DNA of 64,000 nt from Spirochaetota bacterium. Lineage in GTDB: Bacteria; Spirochaetota; UBA4802; UBA5550. The stretch is taken from assembly GCA_017999915.1 (NCBI GenBank), contig JAGNKX010000008.1:186001-250000 (forward strand), read 5' to 3'. Position numbers and translations under genes: made by a program. The notes under the pieces are model-generated. The model was not told where the DNA came from, did not search any database, and saw only the letters and a list, made by a program, of their open reading frames with translations. Below, piece after piece: positions 2,665 through 28,123 of the stretch. Every line of letters starts with the position of its first letter. Position 1 is the stretch's first letter.

Positions 2665-4545
2665 ATGGGACACTATGAAGGCAACATGGCCGTATTGAAG
2701 CGGCGTTTTCCCGATATTCAGGGCCCTGTCGCCGCCGCCGCCGATGACGGCTCCATCGAGGCGGTGGAAACGAAGCTGGGAGGCTTTGTCCCGGCCCTCT
2801 CGAAGGAGGGGAAGCGACTCTTCATCCACAGCAAGTTCGATCCCGTGAAGGAGGCCGAGCGGTTCATCGGCGAGATCGACACCGCCGCCTTTGACCTGTT
2901 CATCGTCTTCGGCTTCGGCTTCGGCTACCACGTGGAGGAGCTCCTCCGCGGCATGGGGGGCGATTCCCTGGTCCTGGTCATAGAGAAGAGCCCCCTGATG
3001 ATAAGGAGGGCCATGGAATGCAGGGACCTGGGGCCGCTCCTGGGCGATGAGCGCGTCCTCATCCTCATCGACCCGAACGAGGACGTCATCGCAGGCGCGC
3101 TGAAGGGGAAATCCTCCCGCCGCACGAGCCTCATCCTCCACCGCGGCTCGTTCCAGGCGGAGCAGGATTATTACGGCAACCTGCAGCATGTCGTGCGCTC
3201 CTATCTTTCCACGAAGGACGTGAACATAGCCACCCTGGCGAAATTCGAAAAGGTGTGGGCCTCCAACATCGCCCGGAACATCGGCGCCTATATCAGGGCG
3301 CCCGGAGCGAATATTTTCTTTGATAAATTCAGGGATGTGCCTGCCATAGTCGTCGCGGCCGGGCCGTCGCTCCGCCGGAGCCTCGAGTTCATCAGGCGCA
3401 ACCGCGACCGGGCCGTTATCGTGGCTGTGGACACGTCGTACCGCATTTTAATGAAGGAAGGGATCGAGCCCCATTTCTGCATCGTCGTCGATCCCCAGGC
3501 GATAAACGCCCGCTATTTCGAGGGATCGGCTCCCGGCAGGACGGTCCTGATCGCGGACCCGACGGTGCATCCCTCGGTGTTCCGCCTCTTCAAGGGTCGC
3601 GTCGCCATGACCGGCGTCGCCTTTGAGCTCATGAAGTGGATCGAGCGACTCTCCGGGGAGAAGGGTGAGATCACCCATGGAGGGTCCGTGTCGACCAATG
3701 CCTATGACTTCGCCCGGCGCCTCGGCGCGAAGCCGGTGTACCTCGCGGGGCAGGACCTGGCCTTCACCGGTGGATACGCCCACGCCCGCGGGTCGTACCT
3801 GGACGAGCAGGTGCACCTCCGCACCGGCAGGCTCTACACGCCGGAAATGTTCAACCGGTTTCAGCTTACGGCCCTGCCGAAGATTCTCGTGAAGGGGATC
3901 GGGGGCGGAACGGTGCACACGAACCAGAAGATGATGATATTCCTCACCTGGTTCCAGAAGCGGGAGGACCGTGGCCTCGTCAACGCGACCTGCGACGGGG
4001 CCCTGATTCCCGGCGTGAACCATGTCGCGGCCGCCGACATAGACCTTGCGGAACCGCCCGGCGCCATCGAAGTCCGCATAGACGAGTTGTTCAATTTGTC
4101 TGTACCGGGACAGGGCGGGGGGAGCGGAAAGCTCCTTGCCAGGATCGGAGCCGTGCAGGAAGAGATCGAGGCCCTGCTGCCGCTCCTTGACAGGGCGGTG
4201 GGATACTCCGAGCAGCTCCTGGGCCTCATGAAGGACAAAAACAGCGGCGGCGGCAATGCCGGGGACCAGGGCAAGGTCGATTACCTCCTGAAAAAGCTCG
4301 CAGAGACGGACCGTGTTCTGGATACGAAAAAAGGGGCCAAGGACATGATCAGCTTCACGATCCAGCGCGTGGTCCATACCATCACCGAGGGCTATGACAT
4401 AGACGAAGACGATGATTCCCTCTCGGGGGACGAGCTGGTGGCGAAGCGCTCCCTCTACCTGTACCGGGGCCTCCTAGACGGCGCCCGCCTCAACGGGAGG
4501 ATCCTGTCCAAGATGAAGTCCATTCTCGGGCGTTCAGCCCCTTGA
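2665..4545 (+). CDS. DUF115 / MptE-like (6-hydroxymethylpterin-diphosphokinase-like) protein
   Basis: This about 626-residue protein belongs to the DUF115 (motility accessory factor/MptE-like) family that is common in spirochaetes. The core includes AIVVAAGPSLRRSL, starting near codon 239 counted from 2629, followed by strands resembling a nucleotide-sugar or pyrophosphokinase Rossmann fold (VAVDTSYRIL, HFCIVVDPQ) and the motif VYLAGQDLAFTGG. Family members are linked to flagellin glycosylation or to pterin phosphorylation; which applies here is unknown, and no flagellar gene is nearby. The frame is open from a TTG at 2629; ATG at 2665 and ATG at 2686 are alternatives. The last has the best ribosome-binding site (GAAGG), so the exact N-terminus is uncertain. 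Confidence 0.8.
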   Translation: MGHYEGNMAVLKRRFPDIQGPVAAAADDGSIEAVETKLGGFVPALSKEGKRLFIHSKFDPVKEAERFIGEIDTAAFDLFIVFGFGFGYHVEELLRGMGGDSLVLVIEKSPLMIRRAMECRDLGPLLGDERVLILIDPNEDVIAGALKGKSSRRTSLILHRGSFQAEQDYYGNLQHVVRSYLSTKDVNIATLAKFEKVWASNIARNIGAYIRAPGANIFFDKFRDVPAIVVAAGPSLRRSLEFIRRNRDRAVIVAVDTSYRILMKEGIEPHFCIVVDPQAINARYFEGSAPGRTVLIADPTVHPSVFRLFKGRVAMTGVAFELMKWIERLSGEKGEITHGGSVSTNAYDFARRLGAKPVYLAGQDLAFTGGYAHARGSYLDEQVHLRTGRLYTPEMFNRFQLTALPKILVKGIGGGTVHTNQKMMIFLTWFQKREDRGLVNATCDGALIPGVNHVAAADIDLAEPPGAIEVRIDELFNLSVPGQGGGSGKLLARIGAVQEEIEALLPLLDRAVGYSEQLLGLMKDKNSGGGNAGDQGKVDYLLKKLAETDRVLDTKKGAKDMISFTIQRVVHTITEGYDIDEDDDSLSGDELVAKRSLYLYRGLLDGARLNGRILSKMKSILGRSAP

Positions 4546-5480: not shown

Positions 5481-8244
<2,764 letters not shown>

Positions 8245-8459: not shown

Positions 8460-9059
8460 ATGGGCGCGGGAAAAAAAGAAGACGATATTACAATGCGCGA
8501 CAGGATTATCCGTGCCACCATCGAGTGCATCGAGAAGCATGGCCTTCATGATCTCACGGTGCGGCGCATAGCCAGAGAGGCCGGCGTCAACGTGGCTGCC
8601 ATAAATTACTATTTCGGCTCCAAGGAGAAACTCGTTGACGAGGTGTTCCAGAAGACCATTTACACCGGTTTTGATGAGAACATCGACGATTTCCTCAAAG
8701 ATTACAAGGAATCGCCCGATACCGCCCTGGAACAGTTTCTCCGCCACTTCATGGCCGGCGGCCTGCAGTATCCGAACCTTGTGAAGATCCATTTCTATGA
8801 AGCCTTCGTGAACAACAACTACAAGACCTTATCTGCAAAGGGCGTGAGCGCTTTCCTGGATAAGTTCGAGACGACCGTTAGTTCCTGCATGGACAAGAAA
8901 AAAGGGAACCAGTGCAAGATCGAGATGACCCAGTTCTGGTCAGCGGTCTTTTTCCCCATCGTGTTTCCCGGCCTCTTCCGCGACTACACGGGCGTTGACT
9001 TCAAGGACCAGGCCTGGCTGGAAATGTATATCAGAAGGCTGGTTAAGATGTATTTTTAG
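8460..9059 (+). CDS. TetR/AcrR-family repressor of the adjacent outer-membrane export operon
   Basis: The 199-residue product has an N-terminal helix-turn-helix (residues about 13-60: DLTVRRIAREAGVNVAAINY) and a C-terminal ligand domain of unrecognised specificity. ATG 8460 has AGGA upstream; the frame is open back to a TTG at 8391, but that codon is the -35 box of the gene's own promoter, so the longer start is rejected. An AAAC-N4-GTTT palindrome sits on its promoter and four more on the promoter of the next operon. This is direct sequence support for it repressing both itself and the genes at 9472-16371. Fatty-acid-like ligands are common in this family but are not shown here. Confidence 0.88.
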   Translation: MGAGKKEDDITMRDRIIRATIECIEKHGLHDLTVRRIAREAGVNVAAINYYFGSKEKLVDEVFQKTIYTGFDENIDDFLKDYKESPDTALEQFLRHFMAGGLQYPNLVKIHFYEAFVNNNYKTLSAKGVSAFLDKFETTVSSCMDKKKGNQCKIEMTQFWSAVFFPIVFPGLFRDYTGVDFKDQAWLEMYIRRLVKMYF

Positions 9060-24987: not shown

Positions 24988-25401
24988 GGTTGCACATTTA
25001 CTATTCATCATTCATCTTCTGGCTTCTGCCGTTCCTGGTCTGGATCGGACCGTTTTTTTTATCTTTCAAATCAGCCAACAATGATTCGTTCCGCTTAATG
25101 GTGCGGGATTAAAACCCCTTTCTGTCGAACGGCATGGGCCCAATCCGGATGATGAAATATTGACTTTGGTTCTGCCAGTAATGCAACTCAAACCTCTGAT
25201 TGATAGGCACTTGTTGACAAGCGGTGCATCCGAAGAGGGAGTATACGAGGGGGAAGGCCGGTAAGCCTTCCTTCTCGCTATATATGGGCTGGGACCCCTC
25301 TGCCCATATTTCTGCTTGCCTTTTATCATTAATACCGGTATTATTAGATAGAACCGGGGTGAAATAATAAATCACGGTGCATTTCTTCAGCGGGAGGCGC
25401 T
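24988..25401. other. Gene-free lower-GC stretch
   Basis: About 410 bp between the SDR gene and the small Lys-rich gene. Short open frames on the minus strand show no recognisable protein pattern. I see no promoter, tRNA or repeat that I can support. Base composition resembles the adjacent SDR gene and may be part of the same acquired segment. Confidence 0.3.
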
Positions 25402-25668
25402 ATGTCGGGAAAAATATTCTACAGGGAACGCCGCAATGTCCAGGACGGAGACCACCACGCCAGGTTTACGGTGGTCGCGGTATCCGGAGCTGATGTCAGG
25501 TTTACAGTTCAGCATTTCAGGTTGAGTGAGCTGGAATGGATAGCGGGAAAGGTGGATGCCGAGCTCCACCTCCTTGTAACCGAGCCGGGAGTGAAAAAGC
25601 ACGGCCTGGGAGGGGCCAAAAAAGCGAAACAGGCCGCGTCGAAAAAAGCCAAGAGCAAAAAACATTAA
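25402..25668 (+). CDS. Small conserved-looking protein with Lys/Ala-rich tail, upstream of the molybdenum-storage-like gene
   Basis: The 88-residue product has a compact N-terminal half (residues 1-60, predicted strand-rich) and a basic tail of the type AKKAKQAASKKAKSKKH. ATG 25402 follows a GGGAGG ribosome-binding site. It lies 11 bp upstream of the molybdenum-storage-like gene, so co-translation is likely. No family was recognised. The tail could bind nucleic acid or a polyanion; a role with the oxyanion-storage protein is only a guess from position. Confidence 0.55.
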   Translation: MSGKIFYRERRNVQDGDHHARFTVVAVSGADVRFTVQHFRLSELEWIAGKVDAELHLLVTEPGVKKHGLGGAKKAKQAASKKAKSKKH

Positions 25669-25679
25669 CAGGGGGCCCC

Positions 25680-26531
25680 ATGGCACTGATCAGGGAGAAG
25701 GACGGAATGCGCCTGCACGTGAAGAGCAGGCTCATGGGGGAGAGCCTTGTGAGCAATTCTTTTTTCGAGACCCTCGAAGTGGCGCCGCAGCAGCGCCTCT
25801 TTCCCGACGTGAGCATCCTCAAGATAGGCGGCCAGTCTATCACCGACAGGGGCAAGAAGGCCCTTGATTCGATAATCGCGGAGATCGCCGAGAACAAGCC
25901 GCGCCACAAGATGCTCATCACCACGGGCGGCGGCACCAGGAGCAGGCACATCTATTCCATCGGCATCGAGCTCGGCATGCCGACCGGCATCATGGGCAAG
26001 TTCGGCAGCGCCATCTCGGAGCAGAACGCCCTTCTCGTATCCACGCTCCTCGCCCGGGACGGAGGCATCAAGGTCGATCAGAAGCAGATCCTCGAGCTCT
26101 CCATGTTCTATGAACAGGGGTCCCTTCCCGTCATGGCGGCCATGCCGCCCTACGACTATTTTTCCATGCCGTCAAAGAATGCGCGCATCCCGATGCACCG
26201 TACCGATTCGGGAACGCTCATCATCGCCGACCTCATAGGGGCCAAGCAATGCATCTTCGTGAAGGACGAAAACGGGCTCTACACCAATGATCCGAAGAAG
26301 GACCCCGATGCCGTCTTCATACCTGAGATCAGCGTGTCCGAGCTCATCGGGCGCAACCTGGACGACATGGTGATCGAGCGCCCCTGCCTGGAGATCATTC
26401 AGAACAGCGAGGTCATCGACAGGATCCAGATCATCAACGGCATGGTCCCCGGCAATATCACGAAGGCGCTCAACGGCGAGCACGTGGGCACGATAATACA
26501 TTCCGATAAGCAGAAAAGCGGTGGGTCATAA
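25680..26531 (+). CDS. Molybdenum storage protein-like (MosA/MosB family, UMP-kinase fold)
   Basis: The 283-residue protein is clearly of the molybdenum-storage (MoSto) group in the amino-acid-kinase superfamily. It has SILKIGGQSITDRGKKAL for the nucleotide-binding start, TTGGGTRSRHIYSIGIELG, IFVKDENGLYTNDPKKD and the end VNGMVPGNITKAL-like region (INGMVPGNITKALNGEHVGT). MoSto packs polymolybdate or polytungstate with ATP in a heterohexamer of two related subunits. Here only one subunit gene is present, so it may be a homohexamer or its partner lies elsewhere. ATG 25680 follows a G-rich site. The 88-residue gene just upstream is a candidate partner. Confidence 0.8.
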   Translation: MALIREKDGMRLHVKSRLMGESLVSNSFFETLEVAPQQRLFPDVSILKIGGQSITDRGKKALDSIIAEIAENKPRHKMLITTGGGTRSRHIYSIGIELGMPTGIMGKFGSAISEQNALLVSTLLARDGGIKVDQKQILELSMFYEQGSLPVMAAMPPYDYFSMPSKNARIPMHRTDSGTLIIADLIGAKQCIFVKDENGLYTNDPKKDPDAVFIPEISVSELIGRNLDDMVIERPCLEIIQNSEVIDRIQIINGMVPGNITKALNGEHVGTIIHSDKQKSGGS

Positions 26532-26764: not shown

Positions 26765-28123
26765 TTACAATCCCCTCGGATCCCAGTTCGGCCCAAAGAG
26801 TTTTCTTAACATGTACATGGTATCAGGCGGTGTCATGCCGGTGTTTTCCCGGTGGCGCTTCCAGAACTGCTCCCACCAGTCCGACGGCTCTTCCTTGGGC
26901 CCGTCATATTCCGTGGGGCGACTGGTGTCGCCGTCCACCACAAGGCTTCCCACGTAATCGGCCTTGCTGTAAACCCTCTGGATCTGGTCCTTGATTTCCT
27001 TCATGTCTACTTCCGAAACGACGCCGTTGCCCGTGGCCTTGTAGAACTGCACGGTGACACGGATCGGAAACCGTTCGTCCCGCTCTATGTCGAGGCCGGC
27101 GATCTCCGTGAAGGGGCCTTCCACCTTGCCGTGGCCTATCACCGCGGCTTCAACATCGCTCTTTCCCGCCGGAGCAGCCTTGTCGTAGGCCATGCTCTCC
27201 TGGCAGGGCGCGCTCTTGAAGCGCATGAGCTGTTTCTGCTTCAGTGGGACCTGGATGAGGAGCACCAGGTTGAGGCCGCTTTCTCCGGCGGCGGAGGCCG
27301 TATGCTTCGAGCCGTTTCCTTTCTTCCCGTTTTTTTGATCAGCTTTAAAATCGCTCAGGCGCTTGCCGGTGAGGGACGCCCGCTCTCCCTTCTGGTTGAA
27401 GAAGAGACGCTGTCCCCAGGTCATCCCCGCCTGGAAGCCGTCCCGCTTGTTGTCGATGACGGTCATGCTGGTCCCCTCCCTGGTGGCGAGGATCGTCAGC
27501 ACCGCCGGGTTATCCGCATAGGACTGGTAGTTGAAGAGCACGGGGTTGAACTCGGCGATGCCCTTCCTCGGCACCGGCAGGAAGCAGGCCTGGGCGCTCA
27601 CCAGCACGTGGGTGTCGCGCTTCGCCAGGAGGGATTTCCGTGATCCTTTCCAGGAGCCGGGATCGCTCATGTGGGCGCGAAGGTTTTTCAGGAGCTGCGT
27701 AAGGGTTATCTTTTTCAACTGCTTTCCCTTCTCGTTGCCCACGAGGACATAGAACCGGTCCGGGTCGATGTCCGCGCTCAGGTCCTCGTAGTTCGGGTAG
27801 CGTATCACCGGCATGCAGGTGAGGCGGTACTGCTTCGTGGCCGGGTCCTGCTGCTGCACCTGGATGGTCATGTCGCTGATGTTGGGCCCGACGGAGGAGC
27901 CCTTGTAGCGCCCCGTGTCCTCCCAGGTGACGTTCAGGATCTGCAGGCCCTGCTTCTGCGCCAGGGACTGCGCCGTTCCGTCGCTGACCATCCACGCGGT
28001 TTTCTGGACCACGTCGCTGTACTGGCGGTAGTTCCCCGGCTTTCCCTGCGTAACGGCCTGTGTATTGGGGAAAAGGGCCGACGACGTGAAGAGAAGTATC
28101 AGAATAATAATGAAGTTTTTCAT
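26765..28123 (-). CDS. Exported protein of unknown family
   Basis: The 452-residue protein has a clear signal peptide (MKNFIIILILLFTSSALFP, cleavage near NTQA). The mature part has a basic low-complexity linker (about 270-290, KADQKNGKKGNGSKH) between two strand-rich domains; the C-terminal segment is Trp- and Pro-rich (PSDWWEQFWKRHR). I recognise no known domain. It has its own transcription unit, oriented away from the molybdenum-storage-like gene and separated from the TetR gene by about 90 bp. Confidence 0.65.
   Translation of the reverse strand: MKNFIIILILLFTSSALFPNTQAVTQGKPGNYRQYSDVVQKTAWMVSDGTAQSLAQKQGLQILNVTWEDTGRYKGSSVGPNISDMTIQVQQQDPATKQYRLTCMPVIRYPNYEDLSADIDPDRFYVLVGNEKGKQLKKITLTQLLKNLRAHMSDPGSWKGSRKSLLAKRDTHVLVSAQACFLPVPRKGIAEFNPVLFNYQSYADNPAVLTILATREGTSMTVIDNKRDGFQAGMTWGQRLFFNQKGERASLTGKRLSDFKADQKNGKKGNGSKHTASAAGESGLNLVLLIQVPLKQKQLMRFKSAPCQESMAYDKAAPAGKSDVEAAVIGHGKVEGPFTEIAGLDIERDERFPIRVTVQFYKATGNGVVSEVDMKEIKDQIQRVYSKADYVGSLVVDGDTSRPTEYDGPKEEPSDWWEQFWKRHRENTGMTPPDTMYMLRKLFGPNWDPRGL

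Follow-up and report, generated by a model that had tools for sequence, protein, structure and literature searches.

A conserved gene pair encoding a one-subunit MosB-type protein and a small partner of an unnamed family

Introduction

The molybdenum storage protein MoSto, formed in Azotobacter vinelandii by MosA and MosB, is an α3β3 cage that is loaded in an ATP-dependent manner and holds some 70–100 or more Mo or W atoms. Among proteins that harbour polyoxometalate chemistry it is a well-known example. Its storage extends to W besides Mo, and a passage of a 2019 paper still describes MoSto as having no known homologues (PMC6448029). In anaerobes, W/Mo oxyanions are also stored by Tub/Mop molbindins such as Tub of Eubacterium limosum (PMC11980592). 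These have a TOBE domain, whereas neither of the two genes described here matches TOBE in Pfam.

The window, the whole stretch of 64,000 nucleotides analysed here, carries a gene pair whose larger member has the AA-kinase fold in common with MoSto, shares its conserved columns and is closest to MosB. The locus differs from MoSto in having one gene of this type instead of two, in lacking the cluster ligands of MosA and in an obligate small partner of an unnamed family. It differs also in setting: its relatives lie in an aldehyde:ferredoxin oxidoreductase (AOR) and formate dehydrogenase (FDH) context, and no NifH scores above cut-off in its genome. In the open-access literature, a scope outside which most subscription journals fall, we recognised no paper on a one-subunit MoSto or on the small protein.

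Results and discussion

The gene pair and its conservation

An earlier note on this DNA had described two open reading frames, and both were recovered, the small gene lying directly before the large one on the same strand with a gap of 11 bases (Table 1). The open-reading-frame list starts the large frame at 25536 (331 aa), whereas homologues start at M25680. Because a hairpin lies behind the upstream SDR gene, the pair is probably a transcription unit of its own. A 452-aa frame on the minus strand (26765–28123), convergent with the pair, has no Pfam match. The pair exceeds what chance would produce, since homologues of both genes occur in other genomes and both are under purifying selection, with dN/dS values of 0.024 and 0.022 between G018 and G019, the sole unsaturated comparison (those with the window copy are saturated at synonymous sites). 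An assembly artefact or contamination is unlikely, as the contig measures 258 kb and the pair is also found in four other genomes of the same family.

Table 1 Coordinates of features in the window and at related loci
Feature	Position	Strand	Remarks
Terminator-like hairpin and T run, 3' of the upstream SDR gene	25036..25060	+	pattern match only
GGGAGG, probable ribosome-binding site of the small gene	25392..25397	+	sequence
Small partner gene, 88 aa	25402..25668	+	ATG 25402, TAA 25666-25668
Codons of residues 61-88, Lys-rich tail of the small protein	25582..25665	+	unconserved among relatives
AGGGGG, probable ribosome-binding site of the large gene, within the intergenic gap	25670..25675	+	sequence
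MosB-related AA-kinase-fold gene (single-type MoSto homologue), 283 aa	25680..26531	+	ATG 25680, stop 26529-26531
RF01055 riboswitch	L043 3290-3412		just ahead of TiaS-like, small and large genes, all on one strand
TiaS-like genes	L098:92-829, L097, L038, L039, L042, L043, L106		beside the pair or a lone small gene

A profile of the small protein, built from 13 sequences, was searched in the same genomes as the large protein. In the window's own phylum each of the two matched 5 of 392 genomes, the same five and all of one family; in Bacillota, the phylum of Desulfoscipio, each gene was present in 6 of 249 genomes, again the same six. Over these 641 genomes of two phyla, 11 hold both genes, 630 hold neither and none holds one alone, although Fisher p-values for this co-occurrence overstate independence because the carriers are in part close relatives. 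The small gene is also present in all ten clostridial genomes with a large protein of this kind, hereafter called single-type (genomes found through the large gene). It was found in none of the four Bacteroidota genomes with a MosB–MosA tandem, and its profile matched none of 296 Bacteroidota genomes, a sample without a positive control. Among plasmids, MosAB genes were seen only in Azospirillum (10 records), with no small gene there. On two of these plasmids (L109, L110) the gene before mosA is annotated as a uridine (monophosphate) kinase or as a hypothetical protein.

The small gene lies directly upstream, on the same strand, of 19 of the 23 single-type large genes, with gaps that start at 11 bases (the window) and reach about 420 (G013). 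Of the four large genes without such a neighbour, two are in G448; the others are the second copies of L038 and L039. In G448 the small gene (L103:9246–9443) stands alone, the two large genes of that genome being on other contigs, and Sporomusa ovata has a second, lone small gene (L106:9714–9941). Conservation of the pair, proposed as a check in the earlier note, was found: a one-subunit MosB-type protein and a partner of an unnamed family form a conserved unit.

The large protein and the cluster ligands of MosA

Residues 16–274 of the large protein match MosB (235 bits, 9e-69) and residues 13–275 match MosA (167 bits, 4.4e-48) in a phmmer search of the PDB. The next solved structures are UMP kinases (best 48 bits, 1e-11 or worse), and Pfam reports AA_kinase alone. 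The protein is 48% identical to one Bacteroidota MosB. In a tree of 39 rows with pyrH as outgroup, the MosA rows outside and long branches flagged by the program, the 23 single-type proteins group together in a single clade (99/99) that stands beside MosB (83/95, below the program's star). D56, R87, H90, N116, R174 and D176 are among the columns common to MosA, MosB and all 23 single-type rows, and we infer from the fold that they serve nucleotide binding. Judged by its sequence, the large gene product is a one-subunit relative of MoSto and not a MoSto member in the strict sense.

In MoSto, Glu129 and His156 bind the Mo8 cluster covalently, and three symmetry-related histidines bind W3 (PMC4504029). 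Positions 129, 140 and 156 of the MosA sequence are indeed E, H and H, and all three are retained in MosA of Azotobacter and Azospirillum. We take the W3-binding histidine of MosA to be residue 140, and Glu129, His140 and His156 to belong to the alpha chain. Across the 23 single-type rows, the E129 column holds G in 19, D in two, and S and E in one each (D133 in the window); the H156 column holds G in 17, D in five and H in one (D159 in the window); and the H140 column holds Y in 20 and F in three. Because the shared columns stay while these ligands are missing, the alignment indicates that the general kinase-fold part is kept in single-type proteins and the known metal ligands are not. Polyoxometalate storage by the large protein is plausible from homology; with the Mo8 ligands of MosA missing, the storage chemistry must differ from that of MosA, or storage must stay a putative function. 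The second subunits of the Bacteroidota MosB–MosA tandems (L046–L049) also lack Glu129, His140 and His156, so that the chemistry of the cluster may not be uniform even among MoSto proteins of two subunits.

Gene neighbourhoods and riboswitches

Open reading frames around the 23 loci were clustered, and representatives were named by Pfam and NCBIfam. AOR lies directly downstream of the pair in G013 and close to the genes at the G448 and Sporomusa loci, and W/Mo transport parts near the loci include WtpA-like, ModA, ModB, TupA-like and MFS_MOT1 proteins. Further neighbours at the relatives' loci are HTH_17 and PBP_like regulators, MoeA, FDH, XdhC, DUF364 and MOSC. Forty windows of 19.5 kb, at set positions in nine of the genomes that hold the loci, served as controls. 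Ten W/Mo families were searched by tblastn, excluding matches from the same lineage group and alignments covering less than 40% of the query. The loci with at least one W/Mo family numbered 12 of 23 and covered 9 of the 13 lineage groups; among the 40 control windows, 4 had such a family. None of the ten was found in the window (L108), at L096, at L099/L101 or in the Syntrophomonadaceae group, nor at L098, L103 and L106, which are single negative loci within positive groups; the exclusion rule had removed, among others, MOSC in Syntrophomonadaceae loci and FDH in L042.

The window's genome has four AFOR_N (AOR) genes. As a predictor of the pair, AOR presence proved useless within the family, where 19 of 20 genomes have AFOR_N. 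NifH scored above cut-off in 3 of 20 genomes of this family, only one of which (G018) has the pair, and a nitrogenase link was rejected for the window's genome, where no NifH reaches the cut-off.

The Sporomusa ovata pair is located on NZ_ASXP01000005.1 (SOV_5c), with an AOR gene 3.5 kb away. Six AOR genes have been reported for this strain, of which the one on 5c is aor4 (SOV_5c02820), upregulated 14.3 ± 5.6 fold at tenfold tungstate (PMC4973070). Going by the contig name SOV_5c, the AOR gene beside the pair is probably aor4.

The Mo/W cofactor riboswitch RF01055 gave nine matches in 6 of the 23 loci (359 kb) and one match in the 14 of 40 control windows that were scanned (273 kb), a weak enrichment (6/23 against 1/14, Fisher 0.16; by rate, p 0.03). 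The window itself has no Rfam match. A hairpin, P3 by our reading of the RF01055 model, is missing in the five alignments inspected (L043 3290 and 8469; L104 9114; L105 5297 and 8635), and P3-less motifs have been linked to the tungsten cofactor by Regulski and others (PMC2408646). Around the operon in L043, three RF01055 riboswitches lie within 5.3 kb (3290–3412, 5603–5722 and 8469–8586), the first of them, a P3-less one, preceding an operon that includes both genes of the pair. The motif at L105:8635–8750 points to the 3' end of the convergent large gene with no close gene on its own strand, and is possibly an antisense control or a remnant.

Function of the pair and competing readings

The gene context of the relatives points to W/Mo supply of pterin enzymes, and the P3-less riboswitch together with AOR favours tungsten. 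With moderate confidence, we propose that the large gene encodes an ATP-using protein of a single subunit type that stores or handles tungstate/molybdate for pterin-cofactor enzymes, and the small gene its obligate partner. The large protein, as a one-subunit relative of MoSto, would probably assemble as a homohexamer into an ATP-binding cage in which an oxyanion metal is taken up and kept, or passed on, tungstate being likelier than molybdate. Pterin-cofactor enzymes such as AOR and FDH would be the recipients, and the small partner would, on this proposal, dock on the cage and aid loading, unloading or assembly. Speaking against the proposal are the MosA ligands missing from the single-type rows, the window copy and L096, L099 and L101 with no W/Mo neighbour, the window without a riboswitch, and the weakness of the riboswitch enrichment. 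The simpler or different metal store suggested in the earlier note survives in part. Its single gene stands, and a Mo/W role is backed by the relatives' neighbourhoods; a polyoxoanion store stays putative, as the ligands published as binding the cluster covalently in MosA are missing. If the proposal is true, a simpler branch of anaerobes' proteins, made of one subunit, tied to tungsten enzymes and paired with a protein outside any named family, would reveal the origin of such cages, whether one subunit suffices, and how acetogens and syntrophs maintain a tungsten supply for AOR and FDH. As Sporomusa ovata is in culture and carries the pair, the question is testable.

A W/Mo handling enzyme, in place of a store, seems to us rather unlikely. 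The large protein would then supply cofactor synthesis with tungstate as an ATP-dependent chaperone or activator, or it would act as a sensor; the small protein would be an adaptor. Absence of the MosA cluster ligands where other shared columns persist would suit such a role, as would a context of MoeA, AOR, FDH, XdhC and PBP-type regulators. However, the identity to Bacteroidota MosB argues against it, and so do the Bacteroidota MosA-like subunits, which are without the same ligands despite their MosB–MosA tandem.

It is improbable that the large protein has no role with metals and instead acts on a small molecule, as a paralogue of UMP kinase or as some other kinase. The AA-kinase fold is common to it and PyrH, the Azospirillum MosAB genes are themselves annotated as uridine kinases, and the UMP kinase models TIGR02075 and TIGR02076 match weakly, at 40.6 and 62.4 bits; these scores, however, lie far under the respective cut-offs of 243.9 and 158.05 bits, a true and separate pyrH is present in the genome, and the tree separates the large protein from pyrH.

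The small protein has a conserved core at about residues 1–60 (KIFxRER...H.RK.E.E.IA...L), with F6, R8, E9, R10, H38, E43, E45, A48 and L58 invariant in 13 rows, and a variable tail at 61–88. The earlier note had drawn attention to a basic tail, and the last 28 residues of the window copy do carry a net charge of +9, which is what speaks for a polyoxoanion being bound or stabilised by the Lys-rich tail. The 12 other rows, however, have a short or acidic tail, at +1 and +2 in two rows of the same family and −3 to −9 in ten clostridial ones, and that of Sporomusa is His/Cys-rich. The basic tail is therefore particular to the window copy and finds no support as the working part, and a tail-bound polyoxoanion is quite improbable.

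The small protein could not be placed consistently in any family of Pfam, NCBIfam or PHROGs, with scattered matches to one or two members (best 0.00032). An AF2 model from ten sequences, the window's first, has a mean pLDDT of 73.4 and a predicted beta-beta-alpha-beta core mostly at about 88–93; a second model from a re-ordered set averages 72.2. Foldseek returned nothing at E 0.001 or better for these models, and the best VIA-align Z values of 3.9 and 4.4 are too low to use. Chains of complex I NDUFS4 recur among the matches (Foldseek E 0.22 or worse; VIA Z at most 3.1 for the window model and 3.7 for the second).

At 5.46 Mb in 29 contigs, the window's genome is 99% complete. Of its AA_kinase genes, five in all, four score as known kinases (aspartate kinase lysC, argB, proB and pyrH), which leaves one MoSto-type gene. 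Among the 20 distinct genomes with a single-type gene, 17 carry just one and three carry two of the same clade; a MosA-clade gene was found in none of the 20 (E 1e-20; tree). MoSto is described as an alpha–beta hexamer (PMC6448029, PMC4504029), yet with these counts it is extremely improbable that the large gene supplies one subunit of an ordinary MoSto, the gene for the other subunit being elsewhere or lost. The single MosA/MosB-type gene that had been claimed is thus one per genome in most carriers; the search for a second subunit gene among the five here returned none, and the two findings that would have told against the claim, a second MosA/MosB gene and an unconserved small gene, did not appear.

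A candidate third component

A TiaS-like (TCKD-type) protein, weakly similar to TiaS and to methanogenesis marker 11, is a possible third component of the system. At 7 of the 23 loci its gene is close to the pair or to the small gene, against 1 of 40 controls, and that one control window also holds Mo transport genes. More tentatively than the proposal above, we suggest a three-part, tungsten-specific storage and delivery system in anaerobes. It would consist of a MosB-type cage built from one kind of subunit, an obligate small protein of a new family that loads or caps it, and often a TiaS-type protein with a kinase domain. In places a tungsten-cofactor riboswitch would control the system, which would feed AOR and FDH. 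The window's genome has a TiaS-like relative of 33% only; within its family, a close TiaS-like homologue (E under 1e-60) occurs in four of the five genomes with the pair and in none of the 15 without it.
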